Below are positions 6,114-16,543 of a stretch of DNA of 64,000 nucleotides, piece after piece. The notes below the pieces were generated by a model. That model was not told the DNA's origin. It did not search any database and saw nothing but the letters and a program-made list of their open reading frames with translations. Each line of letters begins with the position of its first letter. Position 1 is the first letter of the stretch. Location: contig NZ_JARXYR010000002.1 in assembly GCF_029893635.1 (NCBI RefSeq), positions 4,129,001-4,193,000 of the forward strand. The letters are read 5' to 3'. This stretch comes from Variovorax sp. TBS-050B. Its GTDB lineage: Bacteria > Pseudomonadota > Gammaproteobacteria > Burkholderiales > Burkholderiaceae_C. The translations under genes were made by a program, and so were the position numbers.

Positions 6114-7439
6114 ATGCCAGCAGACAGCACAGCGACCTCTGCCGCAGTCCCCGCGACGCCGGCGCTTCCCGTTTCTCCCCTTCCCCCGCTTCCGTCCTCG
6201 CCCTCGGCCGGCCACATCCGGCTGACCTCGCATGCGGGCGGCTTCGGCGCACTGCCGATCCGCTGGGGCGCGGCCACCGCCACCGAGCGCGGCCCGGTCG
6301 TCGGCACCACCACCAAGCGGGCCCATCGCAACGTCATCGGCACGCACAGCGGCTCCTACAGCGTCTATCGCGCGCTGGCCGTGGCCGCCGGGGCGCTCAA
6401 GCGCGAGCACAAGGCCGACCTGACCAACACCTCGCCGACCGACGTGATCGGCCCCTATCCGCAGTGGAGCGAGCCGGGGCGCATCGTCTCGCTCGATCCC
6501 TGGGGGGCGCTGGTGTCCGACGTGTTCTCGGCCGAACTCGCGGCGGGCTACGACATCCGCCCGACCATCGCGATCACCAAGGCGCACGTGATCCTGCCCG
6601 AGGTGATCGAGGCGCTGCAGAAAGGCCGGCTGCACGCCGACGGCAAGTTCCTCACCGCGGGCGGCGCGGCGATGGTGACCAAGGCGGCGATCGAGCCCGT
6701 CTGGTACCTGCCCGAGGTGGCGCGGCGCTTCGGCTGCTCCGAGACCGACCTGCGCCGCACGCTGTTCGAGGAGACCGGCGGCATGTACCCCGAGCTCGTC
6801 ACGCGCTCCGACCTGGAGGTGTTCCTGCCGCCGATCGGCGGGCAGACGCTCTACATCTTCGGCAACCCGCGCGATCTGGCCAACCCCGCGGTCGAGCTCA
6901 CCGCGCGCATCCACGACGAATGCAACGGCTCCGACGTGTTCGGCTCCGACATCTGCACCTGCCGCCCCTACCTCACGCACGCCATCGAGGAATGCATCCA
7001 GGGCGCGCAGCGCGGCGGCGTGGGCCTGATCGCCTATTCGCGCAAGGAAGGCCGCGCGCTCGGCGAGGTGACGAAGTTCCTGGTCTACAACGCGCGCAAG
7101 CGCCAGGTGGGCGGCGACACGGCCGACCAGTACTTCGCGCGCACCGAGTGCGTCGCCGGGGTGCAGGACATGCGCTTCCAGGAGCTGATGCCCGACGTGT
7201 TCCACTGGCTCGGCATCCGGAAGATCCACCGCCTCGTGTCGATGAGCAACATGAAGTTCGACGCCATCGTCGGCTCGGGCATCGAGATCGGCGAGCGCGT
7301 GAACATTCCAGACGAACTGATCCCGGCCGATGCGCGCGTCGAGATGGACGCCAAGATGGCGGCCGGCTACTTCACGCCCGGTCCGGTGCCGGATGCAGAG
7401 GAACTCAAGAAGGCCAAGGGCCGGGGACTGAGCGAATGA
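6114..7439 (+). CDS. URC1-type GTP cyclohydrolase II homologue (uracil catabolism)
   Basis: A 441-residue protein whose C-terminal half has the GTP cyclohydrolase II fold. Cysteines 270, 281 and 283 ([14 protein letters not shown]) reproduce the zinc site spacing of RibA. The later segment reads [12 protein letters not shown] where RibA has EGRGIGL, and there is an N-terminal extension of about 200 residues; both fit the URC1 group rather than riboflavin enzymes. URC1 is required in the uracil-degrading URC pathway of the yeast Lachancea kluyveri, and bacterial homologues cluster with URC4 and uracil phosphoribosyltransferase genes, exactly as here. It overlaps the next gene by four bases. 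Automatic annotation would probably call it ribA; the neighbours argue against a riboflavin role. Confidence 0.85.
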
Positions 7440-8839
7440 ACGACAGCCAAGCGCAAGACCATCTCCCCGCCGACGGTTCCGGCAGCCTGGCGCCGGGCGC
7501 CGCGGGCAACGTCGATCCGGCGATCGAATTCGCGGTCGATACCCACGACGCCGCGGGCGCGGCCCGCCTGCTGCGCAGCACGGCCGAGATCCGCCGCCGC
7601 GCGGCCGGCCTGCTCGCACGCGCGCGCCGCGGCGAATCGGACTGGTTCCGCATCGGCGGCGACGACGCACTCGAGGACGCCGCCCGCAGCGTGGCCGAGG
7701 TCACGCGCGAACGCTATCCCTGGGACACCATTCCGTACCACAGCCGCTGGCGCCACTTCGAGGCCGGCGGCGTGGACCGCCTGGCGCAACTGAACAGCCT
7801 GCTCGGCGACGCCGACGCGCGGCAGCGCGCCCGTGCCCACATCGACCTGGTGCTCGTGAGCGTGCTGCTCGACGCCGGCGCCGGCCCGGACTGGCACTAC
7901 ACCGAGCCCGCCACCGGCGAGCGCTTCACGCGCTCCGAGGGCCTGGGCATCGCCAGCTTCCACGCCTTCACGAGCGGCATGTTCTCCTCGCGCGCCGGTC
8001 ATCCGCTGCAGGTGGATGCGGCCGGGCTTCGCGCGCTCGTGACCGACCGGCTCGGCGCCGCGTTCCAGGTCAGCGAGGTCAATCCGCTGGTCGGCCTGGC
8101 CGGCCGGGCGATGCTGCTGCGCCGGCTCGGCGAGGCGCTGGCCGAGCAGCCCGAGTACTTCGGCGACGAAGGCCGGCCCGGCAACCTGTTCGACACGCTG
8201 GTCGGCCCCTTCGGCCCGGCCGCGCCGCCGACGGCCGAGGTCACGGCGCACGAGATCCTGACCCTGCTGCTCGATTCGCTCTCGCGCATCTGGCCCGCAG
8301 CCAATGCCGTCGACAGCATCGCGGCCGACGGCAGCGACGTGCTCGGCGGCATCGGGGCCGCCGACCCGGCGCTCGCGCTCGGCGACTGCTGGCGCCACAG
8401 CGCGGTGCGCGGCCCGGGGCTCACCAACGGATGGATGCCGTTCCACAAGCTGTCGCAGTGGCTCACCTACTCGCTGCTGGAACCCTTCGAATGGGCCGGC
8501 GTGAAGGTGCGGCAGGTGAATGCGCTCACCGCCCTGCCCGAATACCGCAACGGCGGCCTGCTGATCGACAGCGGCGTGATCGTGCCGAAGGACCCGGCCT
8601 TCCTGACACGGCAATGGAAGGCGAGCGACGAATTCATCGTCGAATGGCGCGCGCTCACCGTCGCGCTGCTCGACGAACTGGCGCCGCGCGTGCGCAAGGT
8701 GCTCGACCGCAGCGAGGAGGAACTGCCGCTCGCCTGCGTGCTCGAGGGCGGCACCTGGGCCGCCGGCCGGGCCCTGGCACAGCGCTTGCGGGACGGTGCG
8801 CCGCCGCTTTTGATCGAAAGCGACGGCACGGTCTTTTAG
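7436..8839 (+). CDS. URC4-type DUF1688 protein (uracil catabolism)
   Basis: A 467-residue protein beginning [16 protein letters not shown], with a tryptophan/arginine-rich middle ([19 protein letters not shown]) and a C-terminal [18 protein letters not shown] block typical of DUF1688. This family contains URC4, essential for the URC uracil degradation pathway in Lachancea kluyveri; its exact reaction is not defined. Cytoplasmic, with no signal sequence. The ATG at 7436 overlaps the stop of the URC1 homologue (ATGA), giving tight coupling. A uracil phosphoribosyltransferase gene follows after 38 bases, completing the core bacterial URC arrangement. Confidence 0.88.
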
Positions 8840-8877
8840 ACTCGCCGGTTCCGCACAACGGCAAAGAAAAAAATTCA

Positions 8878-15234: not shown

Positions 15235-15256
15235 ACGCTCACCGGACCTCCCCACG

Positions 15257-16543
15257 ATGCTCGATCTCCTCGTCACCAACGCCACCCTTCCCGACGGCCG
15301 CAGCGGCATGTCGATCGCCGTGCAGGCCGGCCGCATCACCGAGCTCCGCGAAGGCCTCGATGCGCCGGCGCACGAGACGCTCGACGCCGGCGGCCTGCTC
15401 GTGGCGCCGCCTTTCGTCGACCCGCATTTCCACATGGACGCCACGCTGAGCTACGGCCTGCCGCGCGTCAACCAGAGCGGCACGCTGCTCGAAGGCATTG
15501 CGCTGTGGGGCGAACTCAAGCCGCTGCTCACGGCCGACGCGCTGATCGAGCGCGCCCTCGCCTATTGCGACTGGGCAGTCGCCAAGGGCCTGCTCGCGAT
15601 CCGCACGCACGTGGACACCAGCGACCCGAGCCTGCTCGCGGTCGATGCGCTGCTGGAGGTGAAGCGCCGCGTCGCGCCCTACATCGACCTCCAGCTCGTG
15701 GCCTTCCCGCAGGACGGCGTGCTGCGCTCCCAGGGCGGCGTCGAGAACCTCCGGCGCGCGCTCGACAAGGGCGTGGACGTGGTCGGCGGCATTCCGCATT
15801 TCGAGCGCACCATGGCCGACGGCGCCGCGAGCGTGAAGCTGCTGATGGAACTCGCCGCCGAGCGCGGCAGCCTGGTCGACATGCACTGCGACGAGTCGGA
15901 CGACCCGCTCTCGCGCCACATCGAGACGCTGGCTTTCGAAGCGCAGCGCCTGGGCATGCAGGGCCGCGTGACCGGCTCGCACTGCACCTCGATGCACTCG
16001 ATGGACAACTACTACGTGAGCAAGCTGCTGCCGCTGATCGCCGAGAGCGGCGTGGGCGTGGTCGCCAATCCGCTCATCAACATCACGCTGCAGGGCCGCC
16101 ACGACAGCTACCCCAAGCGCCGCGGCATGACCCGCGTGCCCGAGCTCATGGCCGCGGGCGTGAACGTCGCCTTCGGCCACGACTGCGTGATGGACCCGTG
16201 GTACGGCATGGGCTCGGGCGACATGCTCGAGGTCGCGCACATGGGCCTGCACGTGGCGCAGATGACGAGCCAAGCCGGCATCCGCCAGTGCTTCGATGCG
16301 GTGACCGCGAACGCGGCGCGGGCGATGCACCTCGAAGGCTACGGCCTGGAGGCGGGCTGCGACGCGAGCTTCGTGCTGCTGCAGGCGCGCGATCCCATCG
16401 AGGCGATCCGGCTGCGCGCCACGCGGCTCAAGGTCTACCGCAAAGGCCGGCTGCTGGCGGAAACGCCGCCGGCCACCGCGAGCCTGCACCTGGCGGGGCG
16501 CGGCGCGGCCACGAGCTGGATGACGCCGCAGCGCAACGGCTAG
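15257..16543 (+). CDS. codA: Cytosine deaminase (amidohydrolase superfamily)
   Basis: A 428-residue metal-dependent amidohydrolase that would convert cytosine to uracil and ammonia. Metal ligands are visible: HFH at residues 57-59 after FVDP, HCDESDD in the middle, and GHDCVMDPW carrying the catalytic aspartate; the HMGLHVAQM segment also follows E. coli CodA. The last gene of the importer operon, it links imported cytosine to the uracil-consuming upp and URC genes upstream and releases ammonia, in keeping with nitrogen control. Related enzymes can act on isoguanine or creatinine, so specificity is likely but not certain. Its stop codon directly abuts the stop codon of the convergent sensor kinase gene. 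Confidence 0.88.
   Translation: MLDLLVTNATLPDGRSGMSIAVQAGRITELREGLDAPAHETLDAGGLLVAPPFVDPHFHMDATLSYGLPRVNQSGTLLEGIALWGELKPLLTADALIERALAYCDWAVAKGLLAIRTHVDTSDPSLLAVDALLEVKRRVAPYIDLQLVAFPQDGVLRSQGGVENLRRALDKGVDVVGGIPHFERTMADGAASVKLLMELAAERGSLVDMHCDESDDPLSRHIETLAFEAQRLGMQGRVTGSHCTSMHSMDNYYVSKLLPLIAESGVGVVANPLINITLQGRHDSYPKRRGMTRVPELMAAGVNVAFGHDCVMDPWYGMGSGDMLEVAHMGLHVAQMTSQAGIRQCFDAVTANAARAMHLEGYGLEAGCDASFVLLQARDPIEAIRLRATRLKVYRKGRLLAETPPATASLHLAGRGAATSWMTPQRNG

Follow-up and report, generated by a model that had tools for sequence, protein, structure and literature searches.

A conserved URC pyrimidine degradation locus in Variovorax and a proposed N-ribosidase role for its URC4 protein

The window analysed here is a 64,000-nt stretch of the Variovorax sp. 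TBS-050B genome (contig NZ_JARXYR010000002.1, positions 4,129,001 to 4,193,000); within it, a URC gene group (URC1, URC4 and uracil phosphoribosyltransferase, UPRT, all adjoining) is followed by genes for a BMP-type ATP-binding cassette (ABC) importer, a nucleosidase-like lipoprotein and a cytosine deaminase (CodA). The locus is a real and conserved system whose pathway type is already known, and we favor, with reasonable though far from full confidence, the view that its two adjacent gene groups together serve to scavenge nitrogen from pyrimidine bases. Of the new points in our analysis, the most useful is the relation, detected by fold and profile comparison, between URC4 (DUF1688) and the queuosine-5'-phosphate N-glycosidase QNG1 (DUF2419); URC4 probably acts as an N-ribosidase, splitting urea off (phospho)ribosylurea. 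A fuller proposal, to which we give an even chance, is that URC4 is a QNG1-superfamily N-ribosidase releasing urea from the (tri)phosphoribosylurea that URC1 produces, which would complete the URC pathway in bacteria and fungi alike, and that the linked genes encode a previously undescribed BMP-type cytosine/uracil importer of Burkholderiales under sigma54 control. Gene content, conserved neighbourhood, URC4-QNG1 homology, urease presence and a promoter-like motif were all obtained by computation; the ligand of the importer, the substrates of URC1 and URC4 in this organism and the nitrogen control are inferred.

The proposed route would start with the importer group bringing in a nucleobase, most likely cytosine. 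CodA would convert cytosine to uracil and ammonia, UPRT would convert uracil to UMP, and after phosphorylation URC1 would open the pyrimidine ring by hydrolysis, so that a three-carbon piece comes off and urea stays bound to the ribose phosphate. URC4 would then cleave the remaining N-glycosidic bond, as QNG1 does on queuosine 5'-phosphate, to give urea and ribose phosphate; the ribose phosphate could return to phosphoribosyl pyrophosphate, and urease would give the last two ammonia molecules.

URC4 is related to QNG1

URC4 (7436..8839, + strand) scores 473.7 bits against PF07958 (cut-off 25). Its fold matches that of QNG1/DUF2419 among the folds listed in the comparison. An alignment of 58 of 81 URC4 sequences (the window's and 57 from 80 named loci) matched a QNG1 alignment with an hhalign E value of 2.2e-8 over 281 columns, with shuffles scoring far lower. 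This QNG1 alignment, of 80 sequences out of 120 listed, from 234 relatives, was the only one to give a decisive match; a separate alignment of Actinobacteria-labelled sequences covered 27 of 29 loci. Lys199 and Asp231 are active-site residues of QNG1. The first corresponds to the invariant K338 of URC4, and several further conserved QNG1 positions are also kept. URC4 is probably an N-ribosidase because it combines the QNG1 fold and profile homology with one retained active-site Lys and an invariant Glu in place of the Asp.

Other comparisons did not bring out this relation. Searched directly with the URC4 profile, the PDB sequences gave chance matches only, QNG1 not among them. When URC4 was aligned by hhalign with two QNG1 fragments (54-56 residues), the score of 11.7 lay within the range of 100 shuffles (mean 12.5, maximum 20.8) and so lacked significance; the fragments nonetheless aligned at the expected site. 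A motif count found 102 of 7,420 segments, all URC4-like, and carries little weight since the motif had been seen before it was counted. In the open-access literature searched we found no paper giving DUF1688 a fold or a chemistry. The earlier note had held that generic annotation would hide this locus, which was not borne out: some NCBI records call URC4 'URC4/urg3 family protein', others DUF1688.

URC1 is distinct from RibA

URC1 (6114..7439, + strand), which resembles GTP cyclohydrolase II and is a probable UTP cyclohydrolase, scores 807 bits against PRK07198 (cut-off 403) and shares 85% identity with the solved Rhodococcus wratislaviensis chain PDB 7eev. That chain is 99.5% identical to the URC1 of an R. 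wratislaviensis URC1-URC4-UPRT locus (L115). We take 7eev to be, probably, the published UTP cyclohydrolase; it is said to belong to the UTP cyclohydrolase paper of Zhang et al. 2021. By this similarity, the substrate of URC1 in Variovorax would be a uracil nucleotide.

A possible objection is that URC1 is the riboflavin enzyme RibA and that the cluster has been misread; the remote similarity to GTP cyclohydrolase II and the Cys triad of URC1 would fit. The earlier note had named the lack of another RibA in the genome as one observation that would overturn its assignment. A separate GTP cyclohydrolase II is present (G000:C2:3673516, 124.7 bits), URC1 reaches just 47 bits against TIGR00505 ribA, far under the cut-off of 206, and URC1 adjoins URC4 in 80 of 80 loci. 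We consider the RibA reading very improbable, and retain URC1 as the probable ring-opening enzyme of a URC pathway.

Conservation of the URC neighbourhood

DUF1688 occurred in 5 of 150 genomes of a sample of the order, 26 of 398 of a phylum sample, and 98 of 100 genomes of the genus. Of the 29 further positive genomes in the order and phylum samples we retrieved 28, as stretches of at most 20 kb, leaving out G256 at a contig end; URC1 and URC4 adjoin in all 28. Counting the window, importer and URC genes occur together in four families of the order (f1, f10, f32 and f39).

We also examined 80 named loci, those closest to URC1. In all 80 the URC1 and URC4 genes share a strand and are no more than 174 nt apart, so their pairing is not due to chance. 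UPRT is next in 76 of them, comprising 28 of 29 loci labelled Actinobacteria and 48 of 51 others, the three misses among the latter being short contigs; this split follows record titles and includes metagenome-assembled genomes (MAGs). Outside the Actinobacteria, 43 loci extend 7 kb or more past UPRT; of these, 23 have the whole importer, 31 have codA, and 39 have a BMP gene or codA. Since some loci end first, these counts are lower bounds. With the same room, none of 23 Actinobacteria-labelled loci has a BMP gene or codA. In L150 and L151 the importer lies 5' of URC1.

Neither a BMP gene nor codA was seen in L095, L107, L139 and L147, each with at least 7 kb past UPRT. In L095, a Rhodoferax MAG, genes resembling a NitT/TauT-type ABC importer lie past UPRT on the other strand (13258-18696, by eye), possibly a replacement importer. 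In L048 (10714-14085), from a genome of the same family, URC1-URC4 is divergent from genes for a cytidine deaminase, a PNP_UDP_1 phosphorylase and a DeoC-like aldolase, which we read as an alternative nucleoside supply.

The check across the order that the earlier note had called for thus came out in its favor: the grouping of URC genes with importer and cytosine deaminase is conserved. We found no description of an importer-codA-URC linkage in the literature searched, and regard it as a variant of the known pathway type.

The importer, its ligand and cytosine deaminase

The nine genes are near-touching except for 178 nt 5' of the BMP gene, and all frames and families were verified. The BMP/PnrA-type solute-binding protein gene (9689..10693, + strand; PF02608 141.6 bits, cut-off 24.1) probably starts with the GTG at 9689, judging from a GAGGAG stretch just 5' of it; the gene caller's preferred start, ATG 9644, falls inside a sigma54-like site described below. 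On the + strand there follow the nucleosidase gene (10690..11649), an ABC importer ATPase with two ABC domains (11640..13250; two PF00005 stretches), permeases 1 (13247..14314; PF02653 132.4 bits) and 2 (14311..15234; PF02653 124.5 bits), and codA (15257..16543). The CodA product would be a cytosine deaminase by subfamily score (PRK07572 795 bits, cut-off 438), and its nearest structures are those of E. coli CodA. A Cys (residue 310 of the window's protein) directly follows the Asp of the GHD motif in all 39 of 40 URC-linked CodA hits that cover the position. The corresponding residue of E. coli CodA is Asp314, which has been linked to changes in substrate range, for example towards 5-methylcytosine. 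These families, with URC1, URC4 and UPRT, are those that the earlier note had listed, and both frames and family scores agree with it.

The constant partner of the importer is codA. Queried with the BMP protein at an E limit of 1e-60, the 150 genomes of the order sample yielded five positives; all five have ABC genes and codA near the BMP gene, and three have URC. One of the others has importer and codA without URC (G138), and another has the order BMP-ABC-P-P-codA-UPRT, also without URC (G125). Import and CodA can therefore serve salvage alone, with URC1 and URC4 adding degradation.

The importer, nucleosidase and CodA might instead be a salvage unit for purines or mixed nucleobases that merely lies 3' of URC, with adenine, guanine or a nucleoside as ligand. 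One structural report gives AtzT a KD of 110 nM for guanine and values of at least 620 uM for other nucleobases, and structure 3s99 contains adenine (PMC6834077). The Glu/Glu/Asp triad of the nucleosidase and a second BMP importer near the rut genes of the same genome point the same way. Against these stand the constant codA neighbour (5/5), where no purine gene holds such a place, the lack of the nucleosidase in 18 of 25 BMP-bearing named loci, and the binding site itself: in 32 of 32 readable BMP rows both guanine-contacting residues of AtzT, Asn218 and Asn220, are lost (the replacing residues vary with the alignment), while Glu165 and Trp194 remain. L071, the 33rd row, duplicates L011 in truncated form and was excluded. 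The family can also bind pyrimidine nucleosides, to judge from a study reporting that a Borrelia BMP protein prefers thymidine (PMC13325309). We hold the purine salvage unit to be unlikely, though a serious contender, and prefer a nucleobase ligand, with cytosine the likeliest; the importer-codA partnership thus supplies a ligand hypothesis for a BMP subfamily.

The nucleosidase-like lipoprotein

The nucleosidase-like lipoprotein (PNP_UDP_1; PF01048 144.8 bits, cut-off 25.1) scores 89.3 bits against TIGR01704 (cut-off 73.8) and 124.5 bits against PRK05584 (cut-off 169). It has an MTAN triad (E56, E262, D285), kept in 10 of 10 hits, the window's own included. An MTAN-type triad goes with purine nucleosides. 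The earlier note had placed cleavage of pyrimidine nucleosides outside the membrane at the head of the route; with a purine-type triad, and absence of the protein from most related loci, this step is unsupported. Found in 8 of 43 loci, the nucleosidase was dropped as a conserved member of the route. In a genome of the same genus (L055, 12526-17050, flipped), genes resembling a polysaccharide deacetylase and an alpha/beta-hydrolase flank the nucleosidase gene within the importer group (by eye); the cluster is therefore variable at this point.

Urease and other pyrimidine routes in the genome

The window's genome (G000) is 5.5 Mb in two contigs, and its closest named loci are from Variovorax. 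It has a urease alpha subunit over cut-off, with neighbours that by eye resemble urease genes, and so has a means of using urea. No UPRT was found in the genome besides that of the operon (8878..9510, + strand; upp 278 bits, cut-off 208), which must therefore also serve salvage.

The genome also has a rut locus (C2:974.9-980.1 kb), with rutA (716.6 bits, cut-off 498), rutB, rutC, rutD and rutF over their cut-offs, a malonic semialdehyde reductase, also over cut-off, in the place of rutE, and a RutR-like gene that is over the PRK15008 cut-off and under that of TIGR03613; no rutG was seen there by eye. That pyrimidines are broken down here by URC alone, as the earlier note's reading would have it, is accordingly not supported, and growth of a single URC mutant on uracil would not disprove the URC pathway. 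RutR-like and sigma54-like sites lie 5' of rutA. The longer stretch (C2:974.9-986.6 kb; L152, L155) continues from rutABCDEF and the RutR-like gene to a 2OG-oxygenase gene, a VOC-like gene and the second BMP importer, which lies within about 2 kb 3' of the rut locus. Its BMP gene (L152, 15776-16880; C2 near 982 kb) is apparently out of frame between the signal-sequence part and the remainder (by eye), seemingly through an assembly error or gene disruption.

These data raise the alternative that import, CodA and the sole UPRT are a salvage system, with URC1 and URC4 idle or in some other role and rut handling pyrimidine breakdown. The URC-less arrangement of G125, the lack of a further UPRT and the presence of rut fit it. 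Among the 100 genus genomes, however, 51 have URC4 and RutA, 47 have URC4 only, 2 have RutA only and none lacks both, and the invariant URC4 residues speak for a working enzyme. We judge this alternative improbable. The counts of URC4 (98 of 100) and RutA (53 of 100) suggest that URC is a common nitrogen route from nucleic-acid bases in these soil and plant bacteria.

A reductive route was considered for the window's genome and set aside: the one dihydropyrimidinase match over cut-off has neighbours that look like transporter and dihydrodipicolinate-synthase-like genes (by eye), while PreA stayed below its cut-off. In a URC genome of the same family (G473, C8:82.5-86.9 kb), PreA and dihydropyrimidinase genes are side by side; URC thus also coexists with the reductive route.

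Regulation

A sigma54-type -24/-12 promoter-like site, TGGCATGGGGATTGCA (9640..9655, + strand), lies 5' of the importer genes, one mismatch from TGGCACN5TTGCW. Sites with at most two mismatches lie 5' of 10 of the 29 BMP genes, out of 33 rows, that have usable upstream DNA, compared with a mean of 0.23 and a maximum of 2 in shuffles, in a test devised once the site in the window was already known; a stricter pattern hit 4 of 33 BMP rows versus 0.08 expected. We take COG1744, COG1079 and COG3845 to be BMP transporter parts. A published survey of predicted sigma54 regulons includes COG0402 (cytosine and guanine deaminases) and, among poorly characterised ABC-transport COGs, these same three (PMC12316311). 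The importer group is probably transcribed from a sigma54-type promoter under nitrogen limitation.

Among the fetched loci, exact TGACCANNTGGTCA sites were found only just 5' of URC1 in L057 and L058, two relatives in which RutR-type operators thus precede URC1. L058 has a RutR-like TetR gene after UPRT (201 bits, under the TIGR03613 cut-off of 368), and L057 a similar gene (by eye).

Evidence on the other side

Several observations count against the nitrogen-scavenging route proposed here. In URC4, QNG1 Asp231 is replaced by the invariant Glu369, and a Pfam scan found PF07958 alone and no PF10343 match, making URC4 a relative of the QNG1 family and not a member. Should URC1 use UTP, there is no explanation for the phosphorylation state of what reaches URC4: either URC4 takes a triphosphate, or the scheme lacks a phosphatase. 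A BMP gene is near URC in 4 of 9 fetched order-mates and in 0 of 19 genomes outside the order, and 20 of the 43 non-Actinobacterial named loci have no whole importer within reach. The nearest solved relatives of the window's BMP protein (AtzT 6pi5 and 3s99) are purine binders. With rut present, URC is not the only pyrimidine route of the genome, and no RutR operator (up to 3 mismatches) was found in the 350 nt 5' of the window's URC1.

Comparison with known systems

The window's URC1 is 85% identical to the probable UTP cyclohydrolase of PDB 7eev/7ej3, and differs in that its activity is predicted. Its BMP protein belongs to the AtzT/BMP/PnrA family and shares part of the base-stacking site (Trp194, Glu165), whereas its group lacks the purine-contacting Asn218 and Asn220 and neighbours codA and URC. 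Rut is an oxygenase route acting on the free base. It likewise uses uracil as a nitrogen source, and a RutR-like gene and operator also stand beside URC1 in two relatives; in the window's genome it is a separate locus.

The same three gene families as in the window make up URC1, URC4 and URC6 of Lachancea kluyveri and urg1/urg2/urg3 of Schizosaccharomyces pombe. In the portions of these accounts at hand, the S. pombe genes are clustered and uracil-induced (PMC2174524), and L. kluyveri URC4 is assigned to the step from ribosylurea to urea (PMC7530994); neither portion mentions a linked importer and codA, which the window has. The window differs further in being a bacterial operon, and in that the urea step found is urease rather than urea amidolyase (the latter was not searched for).

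From QNG1/DUF2419, URC4 differs by Glu369 for Asp231, about 120 additional residues, the missing PF10343 match and another genomic role, yet it has the fold, the profile homology, the Lys199 equivalent and several conserved positions. The URC route is known genetically in yeast; placement in the QNG1 superfamily would give URC4, whose function had long been obscure, a concrete reaction with two candidate residues (K338 and E369), and the pathway's unexplained last step a testable chemistry, the cleavage of a sugar-base bond.

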